From contig NZ_CP107905.1 of NCBI RefSeq assembly GCF_036014015.1, forward strand, positions 3,410,001 through 3,474,000: a stretch of 64,000 nt of DNA, given 5' to 3'. This DNA is from Streptomyces sp. NBC_00457. Its GTDB lineage: Bacteria; Actinomycetota; Actinomycetes; Streptomycetales; Streptomycetaceae. Below are positions 2,848 through 42,725 of the stretch, piece by piece. Each line of letters begins with the position of its first letter. Within the stretch, counting starts at the first letter, position 1. Position numbers and translations under genes: made by a program. A model generated the notes under the pieces. It did no database searches, had not been told where the DNA came from, and saw only the letters and a list, made by a program, of their open reading frames with translations.

Positions 2848-2871
2848 CGAAGCACCATCGTTTCTATCACT

Positions 2872-2892
2872 TGCACTGAACGGTACAGTGCA
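2872..2892. promoter_or_regulatory. TetR-type operator, site A
   Basis: A 21-bp near-perfect palindrome with 7-bp arms TGCACTG and CAGTGCA around AACGGTA. It lies 25 bp upstream of the ATG of the monooxygenase gene ending at 1492, in the gap after the gene at 2958. The same element occurs at 6260, 7217, 10391, 10414 and 18281. Assignment to the TetR regulator at 6369-7070 is inferred from distribution and from sites flanking that gene. Confidence 0.8.
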
Positions 2893-2957
2893 GATTGCAG
2901 ATGTAGAGATGCATGTGTCAGGAAAGCGGAGCGCGATGTCGCCCGGAGGCGCCCGCG

Positions 2958-4256: not shown

Positions 4257-4330
4257 CGGCTCTCCTCGTTGAGATTGAGCGAAAACAACGAACTGATCTG
4301 TATGGGAGGGCGAGTTGGTGACACCCCCAC

Positions 4331-4903: not shown

Positions 4904-4939
4904 GGTCCTCACCTTCTTTCTTCCTGCAAGGCGGTCAGC

Positions 4940-6298: not shown

Positions 6299-6368
6299 GT
6301 TCAGTGAAAGGTCAAGAGATGGGATGCGTCCCGGCTCCGAGCGGGGCCGGGACTCGGCGAGGAGTGAG

Positions 6369-8794: not shown

Positions 8795-8815
8795 CGTTGC
8801 AGGGCTCGGCCGGCG

Positions 8816-9433
8816 CTAGACCCGAGACACGGGTGCTCCCGGCGCCGGGGGCGCGGCGGGCGCCGGCGGCTGGTTCAGGCGCAGGGGCTGCAGGGCCTCG
8901 GTCCAGCGCAGCAGCTCGTCGAGCATCATCGTGGCTGCGGCCTCCAGCGGCTCGTCGGCCCGGAAACCGCCCTCCCCCATGAGTTTGAAGACGAACGGTA
9001 TGGCCACGGCCTCGGGAATCGGCATCATCTTGAGAGTCGTCGTGACCTGCTTGAGCACCTGCACGGAGCGCAGGCCGGCCGCGACGCCGCCGTAGCTGAC
9101 GAATCCGACGGGCTTGTAGAGCCACTCCCGGTACAGGAAGGAAAGAGCGTTGAGCAGCGCGGCAGGAGGACCGTAGTTGTATTCGGGCGTGACGAAGACG
9201 AAGGCGTCGGCCTCGTCCACCGTCGCGCTCCACCTGAGCGTGTGCTCGTGGGTGTACTGACCCGCCCGCGGATGACCGGGTTCATCGAGGAGCGGGAGGC
9301 CGAGCTCAGCGAGGTCGACGAGTTCGACGTCGAAGCCCCCATGCTGCTTCGCGGCCTGGGCCGCCCACTGGCCGATGGGCAGCCCCAGTCGGCCGGGACG
9401 GGTGCTTCCGATGACAACGTGCAACTTCGGCAT
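8816..9433 (-). CDS. NADPH-dependent FMN reductase, 205 aa
   Basis: A flavodoxin-fold NADPH:FMN reductase. Visible are the phosphate-binding start VVIGSTRPGRLGLPIGQW, the FVTPEYNYGPPAALLNALSF motif (active-site PEYN) and the KPVGFVSYGG strand. These enzymes make FMNH2 for two-component monooxygenases or reduce quinones or azo compounds. It follows the tandem SnoaL gene by about 60 bp in the same direction, so it is likely co-transcribed from the operator-controlled promoter near 10412. It gives the island a second flavin-reducing system beside the HpaC-like one. AAAGG precedes the ATG. Confidence 0.88.
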   Translation of the reverse strand: MPKLHVVIGSTRPGRLGLPIGQWAAQAAKQHGGFDVELVDLAELGLPLLDEPGHPRAGQYTHEHTLRWSATVDEADAFVFVTPEYNYGPPAALLNALSFLYREWLYKPVGFVSYGGVAAGLRSVQVLKQVTTTLKMMPIPEAVAIPFVFKLMGEGGFRADEPLEAAATMMLDELLRWTEALQPLRLNQPPAPAAPPAPGAPVSRV

Positions 9434-9496
9434 GGGTGAGCCTTTCTGAGTATGCGTCTGTTCGAGTCGGTGCAGGCCGAGAGAGCCGACGACCGA

Positions 9497-10381
9497 TCAA
9501 GTCCGGGCAGCGGGCGGAGGGCCGGGGGGCTTGGGCGGGGCGGACTTGGTGATGCCGCTCCAGTGCTCCACGAGCTGTTGCCCGCGCACGCGGTAGGCGT
9601 CGTACATGTAGTACGGGTAGAGCGCACCGCTTCCGTCGGGTTCGGCCTGAGGAAGCAGTCCGGCGACGACGACGATGTCGCCCTCGGCGACGATCAGCGC
9701 GGGCGGGATGAGGGGCTCGGCGGGCGGGGGAACGGGACCGTCCGGGAATCGGCTGCGCACGAACTCCTCCAGCCCCGCCCTGCCAGGCGGGTAATGGGAG
9801 ACGTGCTGGAGGTAGTCCTCGGCGACGAAGTCCTTGACCGCATCCGGGTTCTGCGCGTCGAAGACGCAGCGGTAGAAATCCACCACCAGGCGCTTGTTCG
9901 CCTCGATGTCGATCGAAGGGGATGACGACACGATGGTCGCTCGCGTCGGTGTGCCCGGCGCGGGGGGCCGCGGCGGGGCGATCTTGTTGAGGGACGGCCA
10001 CCGCTCGACGATCCGTCCGTCGCGGATCCGGTAGGTGGTGAACCCGTAGTAGTCGAAGGTGAAGCCGGGGGCGTCCGGGTCCGGTTGCGGCATGTAGTGG
10101 CAGACACAGACCAGGTCGTTCTCTCCTATGACGAACACCGGGTCCCGCGGCCCGGAGGCATCGGCCGCACCCGGGTCCGCCGCCAGTTCACGGTCGAACT
10201 CGCGGCGCAGGAGATCGGCGAACGCCTGCGCGCCGTCTGGGAGGTCGGCACCGTGCTGGACCAGGTCCGGGGCCACGTAGTCGGCGACCGCGTCGGCGTT
10301 TCTCGCGCCGAAGACATCGGTGAGGAACCGGCCAACCAGAAGTTTGTTGATGTGTGGCAGTTGCTCGAGTGGTGTAGCCAT
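9497..10381 (-). CDS. Tandem two-domain SnoaL-like protein, 294 aa
   Basis: Two SnoaL/NTF2-like units in one chain. The first (about residues 8-145) has YVAPDLVQHGADLPDG and YRIRDGRIVERWPSLNK. The second (about 155-290) has FVAEDYLQHVSHYPPG and YRVRGQQLVEHWSGITK. The same motifs occur in the single-domain protein at 980-1495. The linker is Pro/Ala-rich. The function is unknown; family members are cyclases, isomerases or small-ligand binders. The ATG at 10381 lacks a Shine-Dalgarno sequence. The promoter TTGACG-N17-TTTAGT places transcription start within a base or two of the ATG, so the mRNA is probably leaderless. Confidence 0.8.
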   Translation of the reverse strand: MATPLEQLPHINKLLVGRFLTDVFGARNADAVADYVAPDLVQHGADLPDGAQAFADLLRREFDRELAADPGAADASGPRDPVFVIGENDLVCVCHYMPQPDPDAPGFTFDYYGFTTYRIRDGRIVERWPSLNKIAPPRPPAPGTPTRATIVSSSPSIDIEANKRLVVDFYRCVFDAQNPDAVKDFVAEDYLQHVSHYPPGRAGLEEFVRSRFPDGPVPPPAEPLIPPALIVAEGDIVVVAGLLPQAEPDGSGALYPYYMYDAYRVRGQQLVEHWSGITKSAPPKPPGPPPAART

Positions 10382-10388
10382 GCGACCC

Positions 10389-10434
10389 ACTAAACTGTAC
10401 CGTACAGTGCACGTCAACTGCACCGTACAGTGCA
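10389..10434 (-). promoter_or_regulatory. Promoter with tandem TetR operators, sites D1 and D2
   Basis: Site D1 (10391-10411; right arm CAGTGCA, left arm TAAACTG) and site D2 (10414-10434; left arm TCAACTG, right arm CAGTGCA) share the CACCGTA/TACCGTA core, with centres 23 bp apart. On the - strand TTGACG (10417-10412) is 17 bp from TTTAGT (10394-10389), giving a promoter for the tandem SnoaL gene that is fully covered by D1. The pair may also affect the divergent aldehyde dehydrogenase gene. Confidence 0.75.
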
Positions 10435-10509
10435 CCTCAACTCGCCCCTTGACATCTCCCCGCCCAAAAGGGGAATGTCCTAGATAGTAAATCACCAGTT
10501 CGGATACAC

Positions 10510-10530
10510 AGGACACCGACAGTTTGTCCT
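10510..10530. promoter_or_regulatory. Inverted repeat upstream of the aldehyde dehydrogenase gene
   Basis: AGGACA and TGTCCT arms separated by 9 bp lie 17 bp before the GTG start of the aldehyde dehydrogenase gene. Another imperfect inverted repeat (GACAT...ATGTC enclosing CCCC...GGGG) lies at 10450-10479. It could be an operator for a second regulator such as the IclR protein at 15275, but that link is a guess. Confidence 0.35.
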
Positions 10531-10547
10531 GCAGAGAAGGGGACATC

Positions 10548-12008
10548 GTGACTTTTCTTGATGCCAGCGTCTGGCAGGAGCGGATCTTCTCGGGAGAATG
10601 GACCAAGGCGGTGGAGTCGTACGACTCCACCGAGCCGGCCACCGGCAAGACCTTGGGCCGAGTCGGCTCCGCCACGCCCGCCGACCTGGAGCGGGCCGTA
10701 GAGCGAGCGGCGCAGGCTCAGCGCGACTGGGCGGCGCGTCCGTACGTCGAGCGGGCCCAGGTGCTGCGGCATGCGGCACGCCTGTTCGAGGAGCACCACG
10801 CCGAGATCGCGGAATGGATCGTGCGGGAGTCCGGTGCCCTGCGCCCGTTCGCCGACTTCCAGACCTCGAACGGGGCGGCCGAGGAGTGCTACGAGGCCGC
10901 GGCGCTGGCGGCGGCTCCGTACGGAGAAGTGCTGCGGTCCATCGAGGACCGACTGTCGTTCGCGCGGCGCCGCCCGGTCGGCGTGGTCGGGGTGATCGCC
11001 CCGTTCAACGCGCCGATGGTGCTGGCCATGCGCGCCGTCGCCCCCGCCCTGGCGCTGGGCAACGCCGTCGTGCTCAAGCCCGACCCGCGCACCGCCGTCT
11101 GCGGCGGTGTCACCATCGCCCGTGTCTTCGAGGAGGCGGGCCTGCCCGCGGGCGTGCTGCACATGCTGCCCGGCGGCGCCGACGTCGGCGCCGCGCTGGT
11201 GGACCACCCGCACGTGCCCGTCATCGCCTTCACCGGCTCCACCCGCGCCGGAAAGGCGATCGCCACCTCGGCGGCGCAGCGGTTGAAGCGCGTCCACCTG
11301 GAGCTCGGCGGCAACTCGGCGCTGATCGTCCTCGACGACGCGGACTTGGAGAAGGCCGCCTCCGCCGGCGCGTTCGGCTCCTTCCACCACGCCGGACAGG
11401 TCTGCATGGCCTCCAGCCGCCACCTGGTGCACGCGTCGGTCGCCGAGGAGTACGCCAAGCTGCTGGCCCAGCACGCGAACGCCGCCCCGGTCGGGGACCC
11501 GGCCACCGGGCAGGTCGCTCTGGGCCCGATGATCGACGAACGCCAGCTGCAGGCCGCCCACTCCATCGTCACCGACAGCGTAGGGAGCGGTGCGCGTCTG
11601 GCGGCCGGCGGAACCTACGAGGGCCTGTTCTACCGTCCGACGGTGCTGGCCGACGTGCCGCTCGACGCCCGCGCCTACGCGGAGGAGATCTTCGGCCCGG
11701 TCGCCCCGGTCGTGCCCTTCCAGGACCTCGACGAGGCCGTCCGGCTGGCCACCGACACCGAGTACGGACTGTCGCTGGGCATCCTGACCCGGGACGTGGC
11801 CAAGGGCCTGGCACTGGCCGACCGCATCCCCACGGGACTGGTCCACATCAACGACCAGACCGTGAACGACGAGGCGACCATCCCGTTCGGCGGCGTCGGC
11901 GAGTCCGGCAACGGCTCCCGCCACGGAGGGAGCGTCGCCAACCTCGAGGCCTTCACCGAACTGCAGTGGGTCACCGTCCGCGGCGAGATCCCCGACTACC
12001 CCTTCTGA
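10548..12008 (+). CDS. Aromatic (benzaldehyde/vanillin-type) aldehyde dehydrogenase, 486 aa
   Basis: An NAD(P)-dependent aldehyde dehydrogenase of the benzaldehyde/vanillin dehydrogenase type. The catalytic Cys286 lies in GQVCMASSRH and the general base Glu252 in HLELGGNS. PFNAP and the ITFTGS-like IAFTGSTRAGKAI cofactor motif are visible, as is the closing FGGVGESGNGSRHGG. It would oxidise an aromatic aldehyde to the acid. The next gene encodes a stilbene/carotenoid-cleaving oxygenase that releases such aldehydes. The GTG at 10548 with AAGGGG five bases upstream was preferred to an ATG at 10524. A perfect 24-bp palindrome lies inside the 5' coding region at 10609-10632. Confidence 0.88.
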   Translation: MTFLDASVWQERIFSGEWTKAVESYDSTEPATGKTLGRVGSATPADLERAVERAAQAQRDWAARPYVERAQVLRHAARLFEEHHAEIAEWIVRESGALRPFADFQTSNGAAEECYEAAALAAAPYGEVLRSIEDRLSFARRRPVGVVGVIAPFNAPMVLAMRAVAPALALGNAVVLKPDPRTAVCGGVTIARVFEEAGLPAGVLHMLPGGADVGAALVDHPHVPVIAFTGSTRAGKAIATSAAQRLKRVHLELGGNSALIVLDDADLEKAASAGAFGSFHHAGQVCMASSRHLVHASVAEEYAKLLAQHANAAPVGDPATGQVALGPMIDERQLQAAHSIVTDSVGSGARLAAGGTYEGLFYRPTVLADVPLDARAYAEEIFGPVAPVVPFQDLDEAVRLATDTEYGLSLGILTRDVAKGLALADRIPTGLVHINDQTVNDEATIPFGGVGESGNGSRHGGSVANLEAFTELQWVTVRGEIPDYPF

Positions 12009-12056
12009 CCCCGCTCTTTCTCTCACCCCCGCTTCACCCGCACTTGGAGCATGCAG

Positions 12057-13610
12057 ATGACACTTCCTTCGCGGCAGGGCCCCTCACTGCCCGATCCCAT
12101 GACCATCGCGCCGCGTACCACCCCGCATCCACCCACCCCTCAGCTCGCCCAGGACGCCGCCGGCTGGGCGCCCGGCAACAAATTCCTGGAAGGCCCGTTC
12201 ACTCCCTGGACGGAGGAGAGCGGCGCGTATGACCTGGAGGTGGACGGGCAGATCCCGGGCGAGCTAGCGGGGGCACTGTTCCGTATCTCCTCCAACCCCC
12301 GCTTCACGCCGCGCGATCCCGACCGCTACCACTGGTGGGAGGGCGACGGCATGGTCTGCGGTATCTACCTGCGCGACGGGCGCGCCGCCTACCGCACCCG
12401 CTGGGTGATGACCGACTCCATGAAGTTCGAGGTCGAGCAGGGCGAGGCGGTCTACAGCGGTTTCGCCAACGGCGGCAGTACGGCGCCCCTCCCCCACGGC
12501 GCTCCGCCCGCGAAGAACGTCGCCAACACCAACGTCGGCATCTTCGACGACCACCTGCTGGTCTACTTCGAAGGCGGACTGCCGTACTCGATGCACCCGG
12601 AAACCCTGGAGACGAACGGCACTTACGACTTCCACGGCGGCATCGACGTCCTGTGCACCGCCCACTACAAGATCGACCCCGACAGCGGCGACATGCTCTT
12701 CTTCGCCGCCACCGGGCCGACCATCACCTGGTACCGGGCGGACGTGAAGACCGGGCACGTCGTCGACAGCCACAGCTTCGACATCAAGGTGCCGGTGCTG
12801 ATGCACGACTTCGCCGTCAGCGACAACTACGCGATCTTCTTCGTCACCCCGGCGCAGTTCCGCCTCGACCACATCATGCGGGGCGAGCCGGGCGTGGTCT
12901 GGGACGAGGCGTCGCTGCCGCACGGTGTGCAGATCGTGCTCATGAACCGGCAGACGCACGCCGTCAGTTGGCACGAGGTGGGCGGCTACTGGGCCAACAC
13001 CCACTTCTACAACGCCTACGAGGACAACGGCCAAGTCGTCATCGACGGACACCGCATCACCCGCCTGGGCACCCCGGCCGACCGGCTGGACACCCCGGTG
13101 ACGTCCCACTCCTGGTTCCCGCCGTCGGTGCCCCATCGCTGGCGTGTGGACCTGGCGACCGGCCGGGCGGCGGAGGAGATGGTCGGCGGCGTCGCCGGAG
13201 AGTTCCCGAGGATCAATGACGCCTTCACCGGCCGGCGTCATCGCTACGGATATTTCGTCACCACCCGCTACCTGGCCGACGACACCATGAGCGACGGTCT
13301 CGCCAAGCACGACGCCTTGCGCGACTCCACCACGGTCGTCGAGGGACCGGACCACCTCACCAACCCCGGCGAGCCGGTCTTCGTCGCCCGCGAGAACGCC
13401 ATCGCCGAGGACGACGGCTACCTGCTCACCCTGTGGTGGAACCGCGAGACCGGCCTGAGCGAACTCCTCATCCACGACGCCGCTGACCTGCGACGCACCC
13501 CGCTGGCCCGGGTGAAACTGCCCAGCCGCGTGCCCTTCGGCTTCCACGGCAACTGGGCCGACCGCACCACGCTCGACCAGGCTGTGGCCGCCCGCAGCGA
13601 CGCGAACTGA
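12057..13610 (+). CDS. Carotenoid oxygenase family protein, probable stilbene or phenylpropenoid cleaving dioxygenase
   Basis: A seven-bladed propeller non-haem iron oxygenase of the RPE65/lignostilbene dioxygenase family, 517 aa. The four iron-binding histidines are recognisable: His203 (TAHYKID), His250 (MHDFAV), His316 (NTHFYNAYE) and His497 (FGFHGNW). Tyr112 and Lys153 (before NVANTN) sit where stilbene-cleaving members keep residues that contact the 4'-hydroxyl; this is judged by position only. Such enzymes split the central double bond of stilbenes or isoeugenol to aromatic aldehydes, and the adjacent aldehyde dehydrogenase fits that. ATG 12057 has GGAG seven bases upstream; ATG 12051 is too close to it. 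Confidence 0.85.
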   Translation: MTLPSRQGPSLPDPMTIAPRTTPHPPTPQLAQDAAGWAPGNKFLEGPFTPWTEESGAYDLEVDGQIPGELAGALFRISSNPRFTPRDPDRYHWWEGDGMVCGIYLRDGRAAYRTRWVMTDSMKFEVEQGEAVYSGFANGGSTAPLPHGAPPAKNVANTNVGIFDDHLLVYFEGGLPYSMHPETLETNGTYDFHGGIDVLCTAHYKIDPDSGDMLFFAATGPTITWYRADVKTGHVVDSHSFDIKVPVLMHDFAVSDNYAIFFVTPAQFRLDHIMRGEPGVVWDEASLPHGVQIVLMNRQTHAVSWHEVGGYWANTHFYNAYEDNGQVVIDGHRITRLGTPADRLDTPVTSHSWFPPSVPHRWRVDLATGRAAEEMVGGVAGEFPRINDAFTGRRHRYGYFVTTRYLADDTMSDGLAKHDALRDSTTVVEGPDHLTNPGEPVFVARENAIAEDDGYLLTLWWNRETGLSELLIHDAADLRRTPLARVKLPSRVPFGFHGNWADRTTLDQAVAARSDAN

Positions 13611-13648
13611 CCCGCTTCTTGCATTGCGTGTTCTGAAAGGAGAGGTCC

Positions 13649-14143
13649 ATGGCTATCACCGGCCTCGGACACACCGGCTTCTGGGTGGACGACCTGGAGA
13701 CGATGCGTGACTTCTACACCCGGGTCATGGGGCTGACCGTGACCGACGAGGACGCGGACCTCGGCATCGTGTTCTTCTCCTCGCGTCCCGAAGAGGAGCA
13801 CCACGAGTTCGTGCTCCAGCGGGGCCGCACCGCGCCCCCCGGGTCCAAGCTGACCCACCAGGTGTCGTGGAGGGTCGACTCGCTGGAGACGATCATCGAC
13901 TTCCACCATCGCTTCCGTGCCGAAGGCATCGAGGTGCAACAGGAGGTCACGCACGGCAACGCCATCGGCATCTACTTCTTCGATCCCGAGGGCAACCGCA
14001 ACGAGGTCTACCTCCGGGTGGAGCGGGACGTGCGTCAGCCGTTCCGCAAGACCATCGACCTCGACCAGGATCCCGCCGACGTGCTCGCCGAAGCCGAACG
14101 CCTTCTCTCCGACGGCGGCGCCGCCTACCAGCCGGTCCAGTGA
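13649..14143 (+). CDS. VOC-superfamily (extradiol dioxygenase-like) protein, 164 aa
   Basis: A vicinal-oxygen-chelate protein with two beta-alpha-beta-beta-beta modules. The likely metal ligands are His8 (GLGHTGFWV), His70 (KLTHQVSW) and Glu119 (GNRNEVYL). This is the 2-His-1-Glu set of extradiol ring-cleaving dioxygenases, though the protein has only the short single-unit form, so glyoxalase-like activity cannot be excluded. AAGGAGAGG precedes the ATG. It follows the stilbene-cleaving oxygenase gene by 38 bp and would cleave a catechol made by the hydroxylase at 16218-17957. A broken copy with an internal deletion lies at 18005-18120. Confidence 0.83.
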   Translation: MAITGLGHTGFWVDDLETMRDFYTRVMGLTVTDEDADLGIVFFSSRPEEEHHEFVLQRGRTAPPGSKLTHQVSWRVDSLETIIDFHHRFRAEGIEVQQEVTHGNAIGIYFFDPEGNRNEVYLRVERDVRQPFRKTIDLDQDPADVLAEAERLLSDGGAAYQPVQ

Positions 14144-14184
14144 CGAGGGCGACCTCGCAACGCCACGCGCCCCGGGATCCCGGG

Positions 14185-14300
14185 GCGCAGCTGCAGGTTC
14201 TCGTCGTCGGCGCCGGCCCACCTGACTCGCCGCGGCGCACCTCGTGGACGGCCCCAAGGCGATCAGCCTCGAACGCTTCGTACCCCGAGCCCTCGCCAAC
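14185..14300 (+). pseudogene. Relic of the 5' end of an FAD-dependent hydroxylase gene
   Basis: Translation from 14191 reads LQVLVVGAGP, matching the VLVVGAGPVG dinucleotide-binding start of the intact hydroxylase at 16218-17957. About 65 bp later, in a different frame, KAISL appears at 14256; the intact protein has the same KAISL some 45 residues after its GAGP. The relic therefore combines a deletion with a frameshift. It occupies the gap between the VOC and FAH genes, where the hydroxylase is inferred to have stood. A GC-rich palindrome (CCCCGGGATCCCGGGG) lies just upstream, ending at 14184. Confidence 0.6.
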
Positions 14301-14377
14301 CTCACTCACACACCCAAGACTTCGGCCGCAATGCCGACCCTTGCCGCCGTTTTCGCCCCTTCCTCCGGAGAACCGTC

Positions 14378-15232
14378 ATGAGACTCAGTACCGTCCGTCT
14401 GCCCGCCCCCGATTCCGGCACGCAACTTACCGCTGCTGCCCGCCATGAGGGCGACGAACTGGTCCTGCTGCCGTACTCGGACGTCGGGGCCCTGCTGGCG
14501 AGCGGAGAGGACTGGCACAACCGCGCGGAAGCGGTCGACGGTAAGGGGATGCCACGGGACGGCGCGTCCCTCGCCCCCGTCGTCCCGCACCCCAACAAGA
14601 TCGTGTGCCTCGGCCTGAACTACGCCACACACATCAAGGAGATGGGCCGGCCCACCCCGACCCACCCGACGCTCTTCGCCAAGTACGACGGCTCCTTGGT
14701 CGGGGCCCACGACGACGTCCATATGCCGCCGGTCAGCGACGACCTCGACTGGGAGGCCGAACTCGGTGTCGTGATCGGACGGCGAGCCAGGCACGTCACC
14801 CGGGACGAAGCGCTCGCCTACGTGGGCGGCTACACCGTCGTCAACGACGTGACCGTACGGGATTGGCAGCATCGCACCCGGGAGTTCCTCTCCGGGAAGA
14901 CGTTCGAGGCGACCACGCCGGTCGGGCCGTCTCTCGTCACTCCGGACGAACTCCCCCCGGGAGCCTCGGGGTTGACGGTCGGCTGCAGCGTGGACGGCCA
15001 CACCATGCAGAAGTCCAACACATCCGACCTGCTCTTCGATGTCGCCACGACCATCGCCTACATCAGCACCATCATCACGCTCCTGCCGGGTGATCTGATC
15101 GCCACCGGCACACCGGGCGGAGTGGGGGCAGGGCGCGCCCCCAAGGTCTTCCTGCGCCCCGGGCAGCAGCTGGTCACGTTCGTCGAGGGCGTCGGCGAGC
15201 TGCGCAACACCGTCGTCAAGGAGCGGTTGTGA
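14378..15232 (+). CDS. Fumarylacetoacetate hydrolase (FAH) family protein, 284 aa
   Basis: A complete FAH-family C-C bond hydrolase or isomerase. Visible are GLNYATHIKEMG (residues 79-90), the metal-binding acidic pair Glu126 and Glu128 in DWEAELGVVIG, Asp157 in VVNDVTVRDWQ, the GKTFEATTPVGP loop and GDLIATGTPGGVG. Members hydrolyse acylpyruvates formed after aromatic ring cleavage, so it fits downstream of the VOC dioxygenase. It is preceded by a decayed hydroxylase relic and followed by the IclR gene. Two more copies exist as wreckage: a short 3'-flank scrap at 16137-16182 and a full-length frameshifted copy at 27099-27904. Confidence 0.87.
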   Translation: MRLSTVRLPAPDSGTQLTAAARHEGDELVLLPYSDVGALLASGEDWHNRAEAVDGKGMPRDGASLAPVVPHPNKIVCLGLNYATHIKEMGRPTPTHPTLFAKYDGSLVGAHDDVHMPPVSDDLDWEAELGVVIGRRARHVTRDEALAYVGGYTVVNDVTVRDWQHRTREFLSGKTFEATTPVGPSLVTPDELPPGASGLTVGCSVDGHTMQKSNTSDLLFDVATTIAYISTIITLLPGDLIATGTPGGVGAGRAPKVFLRPGQQLVTFVEGVGELRNTVVKERL

Positions 15233-15274
15233 CCTCCGGTCGCTGGGAGCCACCTGCACGATAGGGTGTCTCCT

Positions 15275-16063
15275 ATGTCAGGATCAGCGTCCCCCAGCTA
15301 TCGCGAGCGCAACTCCACGGCCGACCGGGCCCTGGACATCCTGACGATGTTCGACGACACCCAACTCGTCATTTCCGGTAGCGCGGTCGCCCAGCGTCTG
15401 GGGGTCGCCCGTTCGACCGCCTACCGATATCTGCAGTCCCTGGTGAGCAGCAGGTTCCTGGAGGAGGCGCCGGGCGGCGGCTTCCGGCTCGGGCTGCGTG
15501 TCCTGGAGATCGGCCGGCTGGCAAGGCGCAGCTACGGACTGTCCGAGATCGCTGTTCCGGCGATGACGGAACTGTCCGAGGACGTGTGCGAGACGGTGCT
15601 CTTGACCCGTCGCGCCGGGGACCTGGTCGTCTGCGTCGACCGTGCGGAGGCTGCCGCACGGGCAGTGCGGATCTCCTACGAGCGTGGCAGCAGCCTCCCG
15701 CTCAACGCCGGGGCCTCCGCGCTCGTCCTGCTGGCCTGGATCCCGCAGGACGAGGCACGCCGACTGCTGGAAGCAGCCGAGCTGAGGCGTTTCACGGCGG
15801 CCACGCTCACCGACGTGGACACCCTCATGGACCGGCTCGCGCACATCCGTCGCGCCGGGTATTCCGTCACCCGCGGTGAACTCGACCCCGATGTGACGGG
15901 CGTAGCCGCACCGATCCGCAACGACGAGCAGAAGGTGGTCGCCGCGGTGAGCGTCGCCGCGCTCGCCTCCAGGGTGTTTCCCGAAGCGGAGGCAGAACTG
16001 GCTCAAAAGGTGCTGACCACCGCTCAGAAGATCACTGACCGCCTGATCGCCGTCGGGGGTTGA
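15275..16063 (+). CDS. IclR-family transcriptional regulator, 262 aa
   Basis: An N-terminal winged helix-turn-helix (TADRALDILTMF, then SGSAVAQRLGVARSTAYRYLQSL) followed by the IclR effector domain (AVPAMTELSEDVCETVLL, SSLPLNAGASALVLLAW, GELDPDVTGVAAPI). IclR proteins commonly control aromatic degradation operons and sense ring-cleavage intermediates. The gene stands 42 bp after the FAH gene in the same direction, so it probably regulates this pathway; its operator is unknown. The ATG at 15275 was chosen; an in-frame GTG at 15266 is possible. Confidence 0.87.
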   Translation: MSGSASPSYRERNSTADRALDILTMFDDTQLVISGSAVAQRLGVARSTAYRYLQSLVSSRFLEEAPGGGFRLGLRVLEIGRLARRSYGLSEIAVPAMTELSEDVCETVLLTRRAGDLVVCVDRAEAAARAVRISYERGSSLPLNAGASALVLLAWIPQDEARRLLEAAELRRFTAATLTDVDTLMDRLAHIRRAGYSVTRGELDPDVTGVAAPIRNDEQKVVAAVSVAALASRVFPEAEAELAQKVLTTAQKITDRLIAVGG

Positions 16064-16105
16064 GGACCCACAGGCCTCCCGCGACGCCGAGGCCGCCTGT
16101 GGTCC
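16064..16105. terminator. Hairpin terminator after the IclR gene
   Basis: Inverted repeat with outer arms GGACC-ACAGGC and GCCTGT-GGTCC (one bulged base) enclosing GGCCTC/GAGGCC. It starts at the IclR stop codon and lies in the convergent gap. Confidence 0.6.
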
Positions 16106-16136
16106 CTGCCTCTGCGTCGCTACGTCGCATCACGTC

Positions 16137-16182
16137 GCCCCCGGCCTTGATGCGCGTGGCGTAGTTCAGGCCGAGCCCGGGC
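16137..16182 (-). pseudogene. Short relic of an FAH-family gene
   Basis: On the - strand this stretch translates as LGLNYATRIKAG, matching GLNYATHIKEMG of the intact FAH protein. Over 31 bp, 29 are identical to 14609-14639 without gaps. It lies immediately downstream of the intact - strand hydroxylase gene, which is the place FAH holds in the inferred VOC-hydroxylase-FAH module. Confidence 0.7.
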
Positions 16183-16217
16183 CGCGCATCGGGCTCAGTC
16201 CTCACCCGAACTCTGTC

Positions 16218-17957
16218 TCACCTGCGGGTTCCTTGTGTGCCGGGTTCCGGTGTCGGGCGGACGGACAGGGCCGGACTCGCAGCGGAAGGTGCAGTACCGG
16301 ACGAGGGCGCTCCGGCCCGCTCCCCTGCGCGGGGGTGAGCCTGAGGCAGGAACCGGGCCAGTGTCCGTGCGACGTGATCGGCGTGCCCAGGGGTGAAGAC
16401 TGCCGCTATCAGCCGGTCGGGGCGGACGAGCAGCAGATGGCCGGGCAGGGACGCCAGGTAGGCGTCGAGCGCGCCGTCCCCATCGGCCACCGCGGCCCGT
16501 CCGCCGCGCTCACGCGGTGCGCGGTCGCCGAGCACGACGTCCACGCGCCGCGCGTCGGGCAGACCGGCGGCCGCGACAGCGGTCCAGTCGTCGTCGGACA
16601 GGCCGATGCCCAGCAGGCTCCAGCCCGGGCCGAGGAGATCGTCGAGGCGAGTGATCTCGTATTCGGGGCCATGCAGCACGAACGGCTGGTACAGCAGGGT
16701 GCCGGCCAGCGCCTGTCCAGAGCCGTCGGCCAGTACCACCGCTCCGGTCCGCACCCGGGTGTCGGGCCGGTACCGCATCTCGGTCAGGTACCGACGCCCG
16801 CGTCGGCTCCGAAGAGCCGCACGCACACAGAGATCCCTCACCCGGGCCCGTCTGTGATCGGTCGTCATGACGACACGGCCCAGCCGCACGGACAGTTCGA
16901 TCATCGCCTGAGCCTGCGGACGGCGCTCCATGTCGTAGGTGTCGAGGAGCGTGTCGGCGGCCCGCCCGGCGAGCACTTCGGCCACCTTCCAGCACAGGTT
17001 GGCCGCGTCCCGGACACCCGAGTTGAGACCTTGTCCGGCAAAGGGCGGCATCATGTGCGCAGCGTCGCCGAGCAGGAAGCAGCGGCCGTCGCGCAGCCGC
17101 TCGGCCAGCAGCGCGTGAAAGGTGTAGGCGACCGAGCGCTCGACCTGTTCCGGGGTGATGTCCCGATGCGGGCGCAACAAGTCCCGCACCAGGCCAAAGG
17201 GCACCGCACCGCCGGGGGCGCACTCGCCCTGGCGCAACCGGAACTCGTATCGGCACCGCCCCTCACGCCCGGGCACGATGACGAGGGGCCGATCAGGGTC
17301 GCCGACGTGCATTCCGTAACGCTCGTCGTGCGGATCCTCGAGAGTGTCGACGACGAGCCAGACGTCGTCCGGATAGCTGCGTCCGCGCATCGGGATGGAC
17401 AGCTGCTCCCGCACGGTACTGCGACCTCCGTCGCACCCCAGGACGTAGGTGGCTTCGATCTGCTGCGTCATTTCGTCACCGTCACCGTCACTGGATGCCA
17501 GGGTGACCCACACGCGGTCGGGATACTGGCCCAGTTCCACGAGGCGGGTCCCGAAGCGAACGTCGACGTGCGGGAAGCGGTCGAGAGCGGAGCGCAGGAC
17601 GCGCTCGAGATCGGGCTGGGCGAACGGATTCTTGAACGGGTGCCCATATCGCCGCTCTCCGGTGCCGCGGGCATGGACGAGCGGTCGTCCGCCGACTCCG
17701 TAGTACCGGGTACCCGTCCCCGGCACGATGATCGGGTAGACGGCTTCGTCCAGGCCGGCCAGTTGCAGTGTGCGCAGCGACTCGTCGTCCAGACTGATCG
17801 CCTTCGCGTCGTCGCTCGTGGTCGTGTGACGCTCGACGACCAGAACGCGCACACCGAGCGCGCCCAGGAGGTTGGCCGCGGTCAGCCCGACCGGTCCCGC
17901 GCCGACGACAAGCACCAGTGGCGCCGCACCGGAGGACGCCGGGGGTGGTGTAGCCAT
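16218..17957 (-). CDS. PheA/TfdB/MhpA-type FAD-dependent aromatic hydroxylase, 579 aa
   Basis: A class A flavoprotein monooxygenase. It has the N-terminal Rossmann motif VVGAGPVGLTAANLLG, the LGCDGGRSTVRE motif in the middle and the FAD-ribityl motif FLLGDAAHMMPPFAGQGLNSG near residue 290. A thioredoxin-like C-terminal domain (ALAGTLLYQPFVL to HLLLVRPDRLIAAV) is typical of phenol 2-monooxygenase and MhpA relatives. It would hydroxylate a phenolic acid or phenol to a catechol with NAD(P)H and O2. It is oriented against the VOC, FAH and IclR genes. A VOC relic lies just upstream and an FAH relic just downstream on the same strand. AAAGG precedes the ATG. Confidence 0.87.
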   Translation of the reverse strand: MATPPPASSGAAPLVLVVGAGPVGLTAANLLGALGVRVLVVERHTTTSDDAKAISLDDESLRTLQLAGLDEAVYPIIVPGTGTRYYGVGGRPLVHARGTGERRYGHPFKNPFAQPDLERVLRSALDRFPHVDVRFGTRLVELGQYPDRVWVTLASSDGDGDEMTQQIEATYVLGCDGGRSTVREQLSIPMRGRSYPDDVWLVVDTLEDPHDERYGMHVGDPDRPLVIVPGREGRCRYEFRLRQGECAPGGAVPFGLVRDLLRPHRDITPEQVERSVAYTFHALLAERLRDGRCFLLGDAAHMMPPFAGQGLNSGVRDAANLCWKVAEVLAGRAADTLLDTYDMERRPQAQAMIELSVRLGRVVMTTDHRRARVRDLCVRAALRSRRGRRYLTEMRYRPDTRVRTGAVVLADGSGQALAGTLLYQPFVLHGPEYEITRLDDLLGPGWSLLGIGLSDDDWTAVAAAGLPDARRVDVVLGDRAPRERGGRAAVADGDGALDAYLASLPGHLLLVRPDRLIAAVFTPGHADHVARTLARFLPQAHPRAGERAGAPSSGTAPSAASPALSVRPTPEPGTQGTRR

Positions 17958-18004
17958 GGATGGACCTTTCGCAAGTGTGAGCTGGACGTGAGTTCGCCGG
18001 ACGA

Positions 18005-18120
18005 CCGCACTGGCTGGTAGGCCGGACCGCCGTCGGCTCGGAAGCGCCGATGAAAGTCGGTGATCGTCTCCAGCGAGTCGAGCGCCACGACACCTGGTGG
18101 GTCAGCTTCACCCGGGCGGA
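18005..18120 (-). pseudogene. Relic of the VOC dioxygenase gene
   Basis: The - strand carries 24 identical bases coding KLTHQVSW. A 1-nt deletion shifts the frame, after which DSLETITDFHRRFRAD follows and then jumps to GGPAYQPV, the end of the intact VOC protein at 13649-14143. About 150 bp between the two parts are missing. It stands directly upstream of the intact hydroxylase, mirroring the VOC position on the other strand. Confidence 0.8.
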
Positions 18121-18267
18121 TACTCATCCTGACTCTATTTTCAGGATTGCTGTACTGCTTTTCGAGACAGTAGGTCGGAGTCTCCTCGCTTGACAACCCC
18201 CGATCGGAACCGACGCTCCACCACTCGCGAATGGTCAGATCCGCGAAAAAACCATGACGCACAGGTC

Positions 18268-18301
18268 TTGACGCGAAATATGCACTGGACCGTACAGTTC
18301 A
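18268..18301 (+). promoter_or_regulatory. Operator-embedded promoter, site E
   Basis: TTGACG (18268-18273) followed 13 bp from its first base by the operator TGCACTG-N7-CAGTTCA (18281-18301). The arrangement is the same as at 7204-7237 before the MFS gene. It is evidently a duplicate of that promoter and now faces an MFS relic and then the DUF485/symporter genes. Confidence 0.75.
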
Positions 18302-18396
18302 GCATCCGACGTGCCCCACGTCGCGCGCTCCCCTTGGGATTTGACCAAGGTCCAGGCCCGCGGCGGGCGCCCCAGCTCACCCGAGGAAGCACATCG

Positions 18397-18945
18397 ATGT
18401 CCGTCACTCGGTCCCGCCCGAACCCCAAGCGGCCCACCGAAGACACCGCCTCCGCGAAATCACCCCGGCGTGACTACCTCGTGACCATCCGCCGCTATCC
18501 CGCGGCCTTCGCTCGCTTCATGCCCTTCATGCTCTGCCTCGTGGCGGGCACCGCGCTGGTCTTCGCCGCTCGGGGAGGCCAGTGGACCTTGTTTCTTTCC
18601 ATAGGCCTCCTCAGCATGGTGATCGGCGTCGCGTCCGCCGTCGGGCCCTGTCCGGTGGGCCGCGACTTCGGTTACGAAGCGACGCTCTCCGCTCTCACCG
18701 TCGCCAGCCTGCTCGGCCTCGTCCTGACCTTCGTGCTGCCGCGCTACCCCCACTCCGACGCGGTTGTGGCCGTACCCGAGGACGAAGAGTCCCAACGCGG
18801 CTCCGGAGGCGGAGCAGGCCCGACCGATAGCACACCGGACGGAAGAACCTGCCGCCGGCGCATGACCACCCTCGGCCCTGCGATTCACTCACCTACCAGG
18901 AGAAGACCCGATGCGTCTCAGACCCCACCCATCCGCACTCGCTGA
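18397..18945 (+). pseudogene. Truncated MFS transporter relic
   Basis: An open frame of 182 codons remains. Residues ~40-115 match the C-terminal part of the MFS protein at 7351-8739: FMPFMLCLVAGTALVFAA against FVPFMVCLVIGMVMVFAA, then WTLFLSIGLLSMVIGVAS, and TLSALTVASLLGLVL...LPRYP against TLIALTAGSLIVLVL...MPRYP. Roughly 290 N-terminal residues and an internal block of about 50 are gone. The start region (GAGGAAG before ATG) and promoter are preserved. Its 3' end overlaps the next gene. It could encode a small three-helix membrane protein, but decay is the simpler view. Confidence 0.75.
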
Positions 18946-19273
18946 TCACCGCGACACGCAGAGAGGTTCGTCGGCTCTGCAACACGCGCGGGAGCAGGCC
19001 CTGCGACTGGACCGGGCCTTTCTGACGTCCAACGCGATCGGCGTCGCCGTCACGTTGATTCTGGGCGCGACGGCCGGCGATCTGGTGGCCCTCAGGCTGC
19101 CCGGCACGCAGGTGACCGTGGGGCTGGTGCTCTACATGGCCCAGGTGGCCTTGCTGCTGGTGACAGCCCGGCGCTTCGACCGGCGCTGCACCCGCCTGCT
19201 GGACCCCTGGCAGCGGGCGTACGGGCAGTCCGGTGCGGGAGCGGCCAACGGCGGTACGGGGGACGCGAGATGA
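18911..19273 (+). CDS. Small DUF485-like membrane protein, 120 aa
   Basis: A short protein with two hydrophobic helices (about residues 36-58 and 66-88), separated by a loop. The size, position and topology resemble the DUF485-type partner encoded just before SSS-family (ActP-like) symporters, though the signature is weak. Its stop overlaps the start of the symporter gene by four bases (ATGA), so the two are coupled. Translation probably begins at the ATG at 18911, after the CAGGAGAAG sequence. It overlaps the tail of the MFS relic frame. Confidence 0.65.
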   Translation: MRLRPHPSALADHRDTQRGSSALQHAREQALRLDRAFLTSNAIGVAVTLILGATAGDLVALRLPGTQVTVGLVLYMAQVALLLVTARRFDRRCTRLLDPWQRAYGQSGAGAANGGTGDAR

Positions 19274-20964
19274 CCGGTGGGACGTTGCACATGGCTGCTT
19301 CCAACAGCCCGAATCATGTCTTGATCGGCTTCATGCTGTTCATGATGCTGACGCTCTTCCTGACGGTCTTCTCCAGCCTGGACGAGCACTCCGCGCGGGA
19401 GTTCTACACCGGCGACCGAACATTGCCACCGTGGAAGAGCGGGATGGCGCTGGCCGGGAGCTTCACATCGACAGCCCTGCTGCTCACCGTCACCGGCGTG
19501 GTGGCGACCGCGGGCTTCGACGGCATCACCACGGCCACCAGCATGTTCCTCTCCCTCGCGGTGCTCCTTCTCCTTGCCCGGCCGATCCAGCTGAGCGGCG
19601 CCTGCACGTTGGGCGAGCTCCTGTCACTACGGGTGTCCGGAACGGCTCCCCGGTTCGCCGCCGCCGTGGCCACGCTCGCCGTGGCAGGACCGTTCCTGGT
19701 CGTGCAGCTGATGGCCGCAGGCAATATCACCGCCTCCCTGCTCGGTTTCACCGGGATCGGCGTCCAGAAGATCTGCACGGTGCTGGTCGGCTGTCTGGTC
19801 GTCGCCTGCGGTGTGCTCAGCGGCGCCAAGGGGCTCACCTCAGTGCAGGTACTGGCAGTTACGGTGATCGGCACAGCGATCTTCGTGATGTGCATCTACG
19901 CCATCCAGGCGTTCCATGGCGACGTCGACACCCTGATCGGCGCCGCCGCACAGGGCAGTAACGATCCGAGCCAGTATCTGTCCCCCGGCGGCACGATCGG
20001 CTTCGGGAGCAGCTCACGCCTCGACTTCGTCGGAGGTCAGCTTGCGCTGGTCCTGGGCAGCGCCTGCATGCCGCACGTCCTGAGCCGGGTCTACGCCATG
20101 AAGGACCCGGCCACTGCTCGACGTTCCGTCCGATACGCGGCCGCTATCGTCGCCTTCCTGTGCGCCGCCTTGATACTGCTGGGATTCACGGCCGCGGCGC
20201 GGATCGGTACTCGTGAGATCTTCAGTGGGCAGGTGCACTCCGACGGCGCGCTGATGCTCCTCGCACGGAGCCTGACAGGGGGTACGGGGAACGGGCTGGG
20301 CGACCTGATGTTCGCCGCTGTGGCATGCGCCCTGTTCCTTTCCATTCTGTCGGTCGTCGGCGGCACCACACTGGCAGCTGCCGGCGCCCTGGCCCGGGAC
20401 TCCTACCACTACATCTACATCGCGCGGCACAAGCGGTCAGGTCCGTCGCACGAGTTGTTCACCGCCCGTGTCGCCGTGGCGCTCTTCGGCGCCCTGGGTA
20501 TCGCGCTCGCGGTGGTCGTCCAGGGCCACTCCGCCGGCTTCCTGGCCGAACTCGCCACCACCGTCGCCGCGTCGGCCGTCACACCGGCCCTGCTGTACAC
20601 CCTCTACTGGCGCCGCTTCAACCGGACAGGACTGCTGTGGACGGTCTACGGCGGAACGACGCTGACGATCGGCCTGTACCTGTTCTCCACTGCCGTGCCG
20701 GGCAGCCCGACGGCACTGATCCCGACCGCCGACTTCGCGTGGTTCGGCCAGAGCAGCCCCGCCATGGTCTCCGTGCCCGCGGCCTTCCTGCTGGGGTGGG
20801 CGGGCAGCCTGGTAGGACGGCGCCGTAGCGGACAGACCCAGGCTCCGGAGGAGGATCCGCTCGCCGTCGAGGCACTCCTGTTGACCGGTCGGCCGCCCGC
20901 ATCCCGTGCTGTCACCCCCCAGGGTCCTTCCGCACCCCTCCGCGGAACGCACCGGCCGCTATGA
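19270..20964 (+). CDS. Sodium:solute symporter (SSS family), 564 aa
   Basis: A large membrane protein with about 13 hydrophobic segments. SSS features are visible: REFYTGDRTLPPWKSGMALAGSF in the first helices, LGSACMPHVLSRVYAMKDP in the middle and AAAGALARDSYHYIY later. ActP-like members import acetate, pyruvate or other monocarboxylates with Na+. In this island an aromatic acid or short acid product is plausible but unproven. It is translationally coupled to the DUF485-like gene, and both appear to be driven by the duplicated operator-promoter at 18268. Confidence 0.85.
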   Translation: MTGGTLHMAASNSPNHVLIGFMLFMMLTLFLTVFSSLDEHSAREFYTGDRTLPPWKSGMALAGSFTSTALLLTVTGVVATAGFDGITTATSMFLSLAVLLLLARPIQLSGACTLGELLSLRVSGTAPRFAAAVATLAVAGPFLVVQLMAAGNITASLLGFTGIGVQKICTVLVGCLVVACGVLSGAKGLTSVQVLAVTVIGTAIFVMCIYAIQAFHGDVDTLIGAAAQGSNDPSQYLSPGGTIGFGSSSRLDFVGGQLALVLGSACMPHVLSRVYAMKDPATARRSVRYAAAIVAFLCAALILLGFTAAARIGTREIFSGQVHSDGALMLLARSLTGGTGNGLGDLMFAAVACALFLSILSVVGGTTLAAAGALARDSYHYIYIARHKRSGPSHELFTARVAVALFGALGIALAVVVQGHSAGFLAELATTVAASAVTPALLYTLYWRRFNRTGLLWTVYGGTTLTIGLYLFSTAVPGSPTALIPTADFAWFGQSSPAMVSVPAAFLLGWAGSLVGRRRSGQTQAPEEDPLAVEALLLTGRPPASRAVTPQGPSAPLRGTHRPL

Positions 20965-21072
20965 CGTTCCCCGGCCGCATCGACGGTGGGTCATCCTCCC
21001 GGTCCCGTCCATACGTTCGGCGAGCCGCTGTCGATCTCGGTCCCTGAGGGCCGTACACCCGTGTGCGCGGGA

Positions 21073-22611
21073 TCAGCAGGGTTCCTGGCCGGAGTCGGCT
21101 GCGGGCAGGACCAGGCGGAACGTGCAGCCACGGCCGGGGGTTGTGTCGAGTTCGAGGCGGCCGCCGTGGCCCACGGCGATGGTCGCGGCGATGGCGAGGC
21201 CGAGCCCGCTGCCACCGTGGAGGCGGGAGCGGGTGGGGTCGGCGCGATAGAAGCGCTCGAAGACCAGCTCGGCGTCGACGGGTTCGAGGCCCGGCCCTTC
21301 GTCAGCCACCTCGATCACGCTGATCGGCAGGCCCTCCGGCAGGGGCGGTGAGGCGGTGGTGCGTCCGGGTCGGTCCGCGCCGCCGGTTCCGGGACCCGCC
21401 TCGGTCGTACCGACACGGACGTGGACGCGAGTGCCCGGCGGGGTGTGGACGTGGGCGTTGGAGAGCAGGTTCTCGAGGATCTGGCGCAACCGGTGCGGGT
21501 CGCCGACAGTCTCCGTGACGTCAAGTTCCTCGGCTCCGGTGGGATCGGCCGGGGTGCGCAGCGGGCCGAGGTCGACGGGGTGGGACGCGCTGTGCACGGC
21601 GGCCGCGCTGACGGCGTCCGCCGCGAGGGACAGCAGGTCGACCCGTTCCCTCAGGTAGGAGGGCTCCTTGTCCAAGGTGGCGAGCAGCTGAAGATCATCG
21701 ACGAGCAGACTCATGCGCTCCGCGTTCTGCACGATGAAGCGGTTGGCCTCGTGCAGTTCCCGCGCCGGGCGTTGCTCCGGGCGCAGGGCGAGTTGAGCGT
21801 AGCCCTGGATGGCGGTGAGCGGGGTGCGCAGTTCGTGCCCTGCGTCGGCGACGAACCGGCGCAGCCGGGCCTCGGAGGCCTCGCGGGCCAGCAGCGCCTT
21901 CTGGAGGCGGTCGAGCATGGAGTTCAGGACCCGGCCGAGCCGTCCGATCTCGGTGCGCGGATCGGTGTCGGGCAACCGCAGGTTGAGCCGGCCCGCGGTG
22001 ATGTCCTGGGCCGTGCTTTCCATTCTGGTCAGCGGCAACAGGCCCAGCCGGACCACCCACCGGCCCAGGGCGAGCAGCGCGATGATCGTGACGGCGAGCA
22101 GGACCGCGTTCAGCCACAGGATCTTCGAGGTGGCGCCGTCGACGGTGTCGAGCGGCAGCGTGACCACCGCGGTCATACCCTCCGGGCCGGGGTTGAGCAT
22201 CACTCGCCAGCGGCCGTCACCACTCACGGCAGACACGGTTTCCGGATGCCCGTCCCGCAGACCGAGGTCCTGCGCGTCATCGGCCAGCCGAGGTCCTGGC
22301 TTTGCCTCGGAGCCGAGGGAGTCGTTCAGAAGGTGCCCGGACGCGTCGTAGAAGTAGATGTGGAAATCCGAGGGCAGCATGTCCGGGCGTTCCCCCGGCG
22401 CCGGGAGCGTTCCGTCGAGGGCGTCGTAGAAGGCCGGTGCCGGTGGGTGGAACTCGACGAGCTGCTCGTCGACGCGGTCCAGCAGCCAGGATCACAGCAC
22501 CACGTAGCCGATGGCCTGGGAGGCCAGGACGGCTGCGGTGGCGAGGACGGTGACGCCGAGGACAAGGCGTCGTCTCAGTGATCCGGGCGGCCGGGTCAGG
22601 AGGTGGATCAC
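21073..22611 (-). pseudogene. Sensor histidine kinase gene with an in-frame TGA at codon 40
   Basis: Reading from a GTG at 22611, which overlaps the response-regulator stop by four bases, gives a first transmembrane helix (LRRRLVLGVTVLATAAVLAS...GYVVL). A TGA at 22494-22492 then interrupts the frame, which continues without other stops as SWLLDRVDEQLVEF. One C-to-T change from CGA (Arg) would explain it. Downstream are a second membrane helix, HAMP, the HisKA box VADAGHELRTPLTA, the N box ILENLLSNAHVH, DEGPGLEP and GGSGLGLAI. Re-initiation at the ATG at 22380 would give a 435-aa kinase lacking the first helix and part of the sensor. A sequencing error is possible. Confidence 0.75.
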
Positions 22612-23351
22612 TGCTCCGGCATCCCTCCGTGGTCGCGGGGAAGACGGAGGCTGTAGCCGACCCCGCGTACGGTCTGGATGAGCGGTGGATCGTAGCAGTC
22701 GATCTTCTTGCGCAGGTAGCGGACGTACGTCTCGATGATCCGGACGTCGCCCGCGAAGTCGTAGCTCCAGACGTGGTCGAGAATCTGGCCCTTGGTCACC
22801 ACCTGTCCGGCGTTCGCCAGGAGGTAGGCCAGGAGCTTGAACTCGGTGGGCGACAGCGCGATGTACTGCCCCGCGCGGTGCACCTCGTGGGTGCCCTCGT
22901 CGAGTTCCAGGTCCGCGTAGCTCAGGACGCTCGGGACCGCTTGCGCTGTGATGGCCGGCGCCGTTCGGCGCAGGATGGCCTCGATGCGCAGCAGGACCTC
23001 CTCGAGGTTGAACGGTTTGGAGACGTAGTCGTCTCCGCCGAGACTCAGTCCGCTGATGCGGTCGTCGGTGCCGGTGCGCGCGGTCAGGAACAGGATCGGA
23101 CAGTCGTTGCCCGCCGCCCGCAGTCTGCGAGTCACCTCGAAGCCGTCCAGGTCGGGCAGCATCACGTCGAGCAGCACCAGGTGCGGTTCCAGGCGTTCGA
23201 CCTCCAGGAGGGCCGACTGTCCGGTGTCGGTACTGCTCACCTCGTATCCGGTCAGGCGAAGCGTCGCCTCCAGCAGGGTGCGGATGCTGGGCTCGTCCTC
23301 GACCACGAGGAGCCGATGTCCCAGCCTCGCTACTGCGGGCTGCTCGGTCAT
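22608..23351 (-). CDS. OmpR/PhoB-family response regulator, 247 aa
   Basis: A receiver domain with the acidic pocket VVEDEP, the phosphoacceptor Asp in VLLDVMLPDLDG, FLTART and the switch Lys in YVSKPF. A winged-helix DNA-binding domain follows (LSPTEFKLLAYLLANAGQVV, then VRYLRKKI and QTVRGVGYSLR). The partner kinase gene follows with a GTGA overlap but carries a premature stop. This two-component pair lies downstream of two glycosyltransferase genes in the same direction, a common actinobacterial grouping. The ATG at 23351 has only a weak ribosome binding site. Confidence 0.88.
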   Translation of the reverse strand: MTEQPAVARLGHRLLVVEDEPSIRTLLEATLRLTGYEVSSTDTGQSALLEVERLEPHLVLLDVMLPDLDGFEVTRRLRAAGNDCPILFLTARTGTDDRISGLSLGGDDYVSKPFNLEEVLLRIEAILRRTAPAITAQAVPSVLSYADLELDEGTHEVHRAGQYIALSPTEFKLLAYLLANAGQVVTKGQILDHVWSYDFAGDVRIIETYVRYLRKKIDCYDPPLIQTVRGVGYSLRLPRDHGGMPEQ

Positions 23352-23401
23352 GACGTCTGCTGATCCGTTCTGCCGTCTGGCGGCGCTTGCCCCGGCCCGG
23401 G

Positions 23402-25618: not shown

Positions 25619-25635
25619 GTCTGGTTTCGCTCTCG

Positions 25636-26925: not shown

Positions 26926-27098
26926 GGCTTCCTCAGGCATGAGGGGACGGCAGACTGCGGCTCACAGGCCCTGGTCCAGGGCCGCGGCCTCACTGTTGCC
27001 GCCCCGCCTGTGGGGGTGGGGGGAGAATACCGAGAACTGACGGAGAGTCAGATCAATGGCCGAAAGCGCTCCCACGATTCACTGTGAGCTCGGCCGCA

Positions 27099-42718: not shown

Positions 42719-42725
42719 CAGCTGG

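Follow-up and report, generated by a model that had tools for sequence, protein, structure and literature searches.

How does a chromosome come to carry one set of three genes as two broken halves that face each other on opposite strands? The question is raised by a locus in the single-contig 10.8-Mb genome of Streptomyces sp. NBC_00457, of which we analyzed bases 3410001-3474000 (64 kb, hereafter the window). On the + strand, an intact extradiol-dioxygenase-like VOC gene (VOC_A, 13649-14143, Pfam Glyoxalase) and an intact FAH gene (FAH_A, 14378-15232, Pfam FAA_hydrolase) enclose the remnant of a hydroxylase gene (HYD_A, 14144-14377). On the - strand, an intact MhpA-type flavin hydroxylase gene (HYD_B, 16218-17957, Pfam FAD_binding_3) stands alone, with an FAH scrap (FAH_B, 16145-16227) downstream and a VOC scrap (VOC_B, 18005-18120) upstream; farther on, a palindrome is followed by an MFS remnant and a sodium:solute symporter gene. 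We refer to the VOC_A and FAH_A side as module or cluster A, and to the HYD_B side as module or cluster B. A sequence-only reading of this DNA had proposed an inverted duplicate with complementary decay. The three intact open reading frames (ORFs) were found as claimed, and the decay is complementary: in A the HYD gene decayed while VOC and FAH survived, and in B only HYD stayed intact. The duplication was not supported. Instead, we consider it likely that two diverged homologous, TetR-controlled aromatic-degradation clusters in the same neighbourhood were sorted by differential loss into a mosaic pathway.

We first asked whether the scraps are real, comparing the alignment score of each with those of 1000 shuffles and 1000 decoys. 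The 64-kb self-comparison pairs VOC_B (18029-18119) with the intact VOC at 86% identity across 93 columns (E 7e-22), and a C-terminal piece lies at 18004-18036; approximately codons 1-62 and 94-153 are missing. Its scores of 117 against VOC_A and 122 against the VOC of locus L010 were never reached by the controls (shuffle maxima 33-35, decoy maxima 35-37; 0/1000 each). The FAH relic was confirmed with 29 of 31 identical bases at 16145-16175 (93.5%; score 52, against at most 42 in shuffles and 39 in decoys, 0/1000 in both), and it proved longer than had been noted: compared with S. lacrimifluminis (G489, L009), three pieces are recognizable at about 16145-16227, starting at the FAH start, which overlaps the HYD_B stop. 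The HYD_A remnant consists of a 5' piece that ends at 14242, a word spanning 14247-14272 and a 3' piece that starts at 14267. It had been rightly identified as a hydroxylase, although the window by itself could not have established this: the score against the intact HYD of the window was a marginal 41 (0/1000 shuffles, maximum 40; 1/1000 decoys, maximum 46), whereas against the syntenic hydroxylase of S. pseudovenezuelae GGS1 (G011; NZ_JARXVH010000013.1, L020) it was 100 (maxima 44 and 39 for shuffles and decoys, 0/1000 in both). The flanks of this scrap are colinear with S. pseudovenezuelae at 91% and 90%, and the gene body is gone (14242|14267 in the window, 53390|54765 in S. pseudovenezuelae). 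All the scraps exceed chance similarity, HYD_A firmly only against the S. pseudovenezuelae gene. In addition to the earlier observations, an MFS remnant (18516-18750, + strand) can be aligned, with a gap, to the intact MFS over residues 326-439 (score 84, against 41 in shuffles and 35 in decoys; 0/1000).

The three genes do occur side by side in related strains. In a gene-order survey of the best 80 of 175 confirmed matches, in which not every frame was checked for damage, VOC, HYD and FAH were adjacent in this order in 31 loci, with IclR as the next gene in 24 of them. In the window, IclR_A (15266-16063, + strand; identified by Pfam and by colinearity with S. pseudovenezuelae) is the final cluster-A gene ahead of the junction with B.

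If both halves came from one module, they should be each other's closest relatives, and they are not. In the HYD tree, HYD_B is sister to the gene of S. lacrimifluminis (100/90) and then to that of Streptomyces sp. NBRC 110468 (100/100), while the HYD_A of S. pseudovenezuelae falls with the genes of five other Streptomyces (99/93); its branch is long (0.57) and its placement less sure. VOC alone separates A from B poorly, the deciding forks being unstarred. The synonymous divergence (dS) of HYD_B from its S. lacrimifluminis counterpart is 0.30, and VOC_A and FAH_A differ from the genes of that same cluster by 0.61 and 0.70, but from S. pseudovenezuelae by 0.19 and 0.24. These values, obtained by comparing gene pairs with relatives, differ between A and B, contrary to a duplication. 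The next-best match by score to HYD_B in its own genome is 39% identical. An inverted duplication of one VOC-HYD-FAH module within the strain, followed by complementary decay, would account for the convergent orientation and for scraps above chance on both sides; we nevertheless regard it as very improbable and rejected it, given that HYD_A (as represented in S. pseudovenezuelae) and HYD_B fall in different clades, that the dS of 0.30 for HYD_B contrasts with 0.61-0.70 for the A genes, and that module B adjoins the same flank as cluster B of S. lacrimifluminis. The convergent layout is most simply the original orientation of two separate clusters that were later joined. Genes of one functional set therefore have incongruent ancestry, as the HYD tree and the dS contrast indicate; remains of the lost homologs persist, and sister genomes retain these genes, as in a mosaic pathway. 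This was not a replacement in situ within an operon, since HYD_B lies on the opposite strand past IclR_A.

Comparison with sister genomes points to two separate clusters. Cluster A aligns at 89-91% with S. pseudovenezuelae (window 8813-16064) and with S. hokutonensis (window 8816-16064; G827, NZ_BARG01000086.1, L027), the sole break being the HYD_A body. Module B corresponds at window 16211-18037 to HYD_B of S. lacrimifluminis together with the adjoining edges of FAH and VOC, in one 1851-bp stretch at 87%. In that species, cluster B comprises an SSS fragment, TetR, CCO, ALDH, VOC, HYD, FAH, HsaA, SnoaL, FMN reductase and MFS. Beyond module B, a small ORF and the sodium:solute symporter gene SSS_B (18873-20964, + strand, Pfam SSF) belong to locus B, and window 18873-20825 is colinear with S. 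hokutonensis 10238-8292 at 87%. The adjoining flank (21065-27251) matches the cluster-B flank of S. lacrimifluminis at 91% over 6205 bp, S. hokutonensis at 86% and S. pseudovenezuelae at 85%. At the edge of this common flank we noticed a third FAH-like gene (27197-27885, - strand), which is frame-broken (pieces of 47% and 34% amino acid identity).

The two loci are arranged differently from genome to genome. S. hokutonensis has cluster A (61.0-69.6 kb) and SSS_B with the flank (2.1-10.2 kb) on one contig, about 48-50 kb apart. In the window, cluster A has become joined to the B flank, and the junction falls at FAH_B. In S. pseudovenezuelae, cluster A meets the B flank at another point, with SSS_A and no B pathway genes between them. 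In S. lacrimifluminis, the part of A with SnoaL, FMN reductase, TetR and HsaA persists on contig C15. At E<=1e-50 this genome has two VOC genes, one belonging to cluster B and the other to a third operon, so VOC_A is missing; ALDH, CCO, HYD, FAH and IclR of A were absent from the 40 kb of C15 that was read, the stretch to which this search was limited. Taken together, these four genomes are four different resolutions of the same redundancy. TetR joins both arms in the window and in S. pseudovenezuelae and has three relatives in S. hokutonensis, which suggests recombination between TetR copies. The three relatives lie on one contig (G827 C93) at 16659-17324, 26596-27333 and 75929-76660 (56, 87 and 83%), and one of them is a TetR-MFS unit.

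The similarity of the flank to its S. lacrimifluminis counterpart raises another explanation, a recent replacement by S. lacrimifluminis-like donor DNA that brought HYD_B with its edges and flank beside cluster A, after which redundant parts were lost. The 91% identity, compared with 86% for S. hokutonensis and 85% for S. pseudovenezuelae, is what such an event would leave. Yet the cluster-A parts also present in S. lacrimifluminis are about equally close (88-91%), and the strain may simply be near that species; moreover, S. hokutonensis has the same SSS_B beside the same flank, which makes the locus older than the strain. No mobile-element gene was recognized in the ORF list, no dedicated mobile-element search being made, and none of the 108 matching plasmid records reaches 80% of the segment. 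Pfam returned no family for two ORFs close to the junction. We judge this replacement unlikely. A recent foreign insertion of module B as such was set aside, the same flank being present in S. lacrimifluminis and S. hokutonensis; the donor version is what we kept of it.

Several observations weigh against a sorting of two coexisting clusters. No genome was found with both clusters complete, and their coexistence is pieced together from parts surviving in different species. The A half of S. lacrimifluminis is on another contig (C15) and lacks the pathway genes. Species differ in gene order around locus B: S. hokutonensis has the HsaA1/SnoaL/FMN-reductase block inverted, and in the window the MFS remnant sits between VOC_B and SSS_B. 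The 91% of the flank to S. lacrimifluminis, against 85-86% to the other two, is not explained by vertical descent alone, and the 48-50 kb between A and B may have been either deleted or moved elsewhere. Further, VOC_B by itself scarcely reveals where it came from, with identities of 0.769 to L009, 0.760 to L010, 0.744 to L024 and 0.736 to VOC_A. Decay, too, was not simple, with HYD_A already 42 residues short in the sisters and the FAH_B remnant lying at the A/B junction.

The shortened HYD_A bears on what the strain lost. The 42-residue deletion is shared by S. pseudovenezuelae, S. hokutonensis and three database proteins (P0122-P0124), and the same five forms carry changes in otherwise near-invariant words; we therefore dropped the idea of a fresh pseudogene restricted to S. 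pseudovenezuelae. All three genomes with the A operon, both sisters and this strain, encode a full-length HYD with canonical motifs elsewhere. Because the sisters and the three proteins share the deletion and each sister has such a full-length gene, HYD_A was probably already impaired at the time of its loss here, and the short form may be inactive. The window remnant itself seems to keep the canonical KAISL word (a 26-base match), where the five short forms are changed. The short frame is open in all five sequences, which is weak evidence of maintenance because 3.1% of 1000 neutral simulation runs were also stop-free. Omega between S. pseudovenezuelae and S. hokutonensis, the only pair with comparable DNA, was 0.47 (bootstrap 0.34-0.61). 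AlphaFold gave pLDDT 75.1 and pTM 0.58 for the short form, and 76.3 and 0.66 for HYD_B. We also considered that the short form was converted rather than dying, serving as a non-catalytic partner or spacer while cluster A relied on a hydroxylase in trans. We think this doubtful; if true, this strain shows the outcome of dropping that partner.

What could hold the two halves together is a 15-bp palindrome, ACTGNACNGTNCAGT. All six copies in the 10.8-Mb genome lie inside the window (2875, 6263, 7220, 10394, 10417 and 18284), and the reversed control has one match in the genome. The copy at 6263 stands directly upstream of TetR_A (6324-7070, + strand; start codon picked by us), between it and a divergent HsaA-like gene, and that at 7220 precedes the intact transporter gene MFS_A of cluster A (7351-8739, + strand, Pfam MFS_1). 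Two copies, ACTGTACCGTACAGT and ACTGCACCGTACAGT (10394-10431), separate SnoaL_A from ALDH_A. The last (18284-18298) lies in the surviving upstream region of VOC_B (18121-18396, - strand), which partly aligns to the VOC upstream region of L010; it is thus upstream of the gutted VOC_B and of HYD_B. We propose TetR_A as the reader of the palindrome, the putative binding resting on their co-occurrence. Because a copy remains in the surviving promoter of module B, both halves probably answer to one TetR.

We compared the distributions of the palindrome and of the regulator. Allowing at most one mismatch, it is present in L009, L010 and the S. pseudovenezuelae cluster, and absent from all 25 loci L011-L035, among which L020, L027 and L028 come from genomes with the cluster elsewhere. 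Among the compared loci, TetR orthologs of at least 65% identity occur only in S. pseudovenezuelae (87%), L009 and L010 (65-67%); the strain's own genome has one TetR at E<=1e-60 and one VOC at E<=1e-40. The S. pseudovenezuelae genome has four palindromes, all within 15 kb of one contig. That of S. lacrimifluminis has seven, three within cluster B and four adjoining TetR-, HsaA- or SnoaL-like genes, and the L010 genome has five, three of them within 12.1 kb. The 100 kb of S. hokutonensis that was read contains nine. Ten of 12 comparison genomes lack the palindrome, one has a single copy, and Streptomyces sp. DSM 15324, for which a 61% TetR relative is listed, has three. Genomes with the TetR cluster numbered 2/372, 2/296, 2/375 and 4/323 in overlapping draws, the source genome being included each time.

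Do the joined remains still work? Cluster A runs from FMN reductase and SnoaL (- strand) to ALDH, CCO, VOC, the HYD scrap, FAH and IclR (+ strand). ALDH_A is an aldehyde dehydrogenase (10554-12008, + strand, Pfam Aldedh), and CCO_A a carotenoid/stilbene-cleavage-type oxygenase of the RPE65 family (12051-13610, + strand, Pfam RPE65), whose best NCBIfam model is lignostilbene dioxygenase (244 bits, cutoff 800). VOC_A shows weak similarity to catechol 2,3-dioxygenase structures. HYD_B passes the NCBIfam subfamily model NF004829 (394.8 bits, cutoff 390), which places it among the MhpA-type group A flavin hydroxylases, and falls under the cutoff of the equivalog NF004831 (469.9 bits, cutoff 546). 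The words GAGP, DGGRS and GDAAH, which we take to be its FAD motifs, are all present. CCO, VOC, FAH and IclR reach no NCBIfam equivalog cutoff, so the substrate named below is a candidate. Together, judged from their families, the remains of A and B probably add up to a complete degradation pathway for an aromatic compound: CCO_A would cleave a stilbene-like or similar substrate, ALDH_A would oxidize the aldehyde, HYD_B would hydroxylate the ring, VOC_A would open it, and FAH_A would hydrolyze the ring-opened product.

Alternatively, the pathway could be dead or disjointed, with HYD_B and the A genes lacking a common function and their complementarity accidental. Keeping one copy each of three genes gives mixed outcomes in six of eight cases by our own arithmetic, so complementary loss in itself is unsurprising, and the rarity lies in the visible scars. 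Omega is low, however, at 0.10-0.26 for VOC, FAH, IclR, CCO and ALDH of A among the window, S. pseudovenezuelae and S. hokutonensis (VOC_A 0.10-0.15 and FAH_A 0.18-0.19 against these two sisters), and 0.24 for HYD_B against S. lacrimifluminis. The HYD_B motifs are complete, and the module-B upstream region with its palindrome survives although its first gene was gutted. A dead pathway is accordingly quite improbable in our view.

For the sorting of two clusters, we propose the following course. Clusters A and B would have coexisted in the strain's ancestry in the same chromosomal neighbourhood, until a deletion joined the cluster-A end, at IclR_A, to FAH_B. Further deletions would have gutted HYD_A and VOC_B and removed the ALDH, CCO and TetR genes of B from the locus. 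HYD_B would now depend on the former VOC_B promoter, with transcription running toward FAH_A, and one repressor probably coordinates the halves through the palindromes at the VOC_B promoter, TetR_A, MFS_A and SnoaL_A/ALDH_A.

Several other features of the locus deserve mention. The A/B junction segment (16064-16144) has no relative among the loci compared and is overlapped by a hairpin (16058-16125) between the convergent IclR_A and HYD_B (z -2.28; 6/200 shuffles fold equally well), which is perhaps a two-way terminator. An Rfam scan at gathering thresholds gave no match. Upstream of cluster A, three tandem paralogs of HsaA-like flavin monooxygenases (1492-6238, - strand, 68-76% DNA identity) are accompanied by an HsaB-like flavin reductase in the same palindrome-bearing cluster. 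Between MFS and FMN reductase (8813-8819), 6.6 kb of S. pseudovenezuelae (41348-47957) is missing; S. hokutonensis shares two blocks of this segment (about 4.4 kb), and an ORF within the segment, at 44649-45842, is presumably of TnpB type. Among the relatives of HYD_B, P0096 (Streptomyces sp. NBC_00019) has 376 amino acids and departs early from the family sequence, and P0005-P0009 (S. canus and kin) end in a divergent C-terminal tail at the position expected for the FAH overlap. The HYD_B proteins of the S. canus strains (P0006-P0008) and of strain NPDC001714 (P0009) show 89-91% identity, and in NPDC001714 one contig of 103670 bases encodes P0009 as well as the TetR P0134. Sorting of HYD_B-type loci may still be under way in other strains.

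Both mosaic operons and the differential loss of redundant copies have been described before, and this case is unusually legible. One member of a functional set was reportedly found replaced by a homolog of different ancestry in a 2003 study. Our case shares such a replacement and differs from it in that the replacing copy lies away from the original operon and faces the other way, and that remains of the lost genes persist in both copies. Compared with the VOC-HYD-FAH-IclR operon of Streptomyces and relatives, the same three genes recur in the same order, but here the three functions are drawn from two loci. For the tfd clusters of 2,4-D degradation, the portion of the literature drawn on here describes transfer followed by differential gene losses, with tfdF displaced by a functionally equivalent homolog (PMC10531765). 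It likewise places related catabolic clusters in one replicon; many tfd clusters, however, are plasmid-borne in Burkholderiales and Sphingomonadales (PMC10531765), whereas the genes studied here lie in a 10.8-Mb Streptomyces contig and a palindrome links both halves. Among the top matches listed, our literature searches showed no Streptomyces example of a similar case, though one may exist, and those on the pathway itself gave lignin or engineering reviews and studies; we do not claim that it is unpublished.

Mosaic operons are usually inferred from trees once the evidence has been erased, and here the scars can be read in one of four related genomes. One shared operator-like palindrome may explain how a split pathway stays coordinated. 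The locus thus offers a concrete, testable case of homologous pathways merging.

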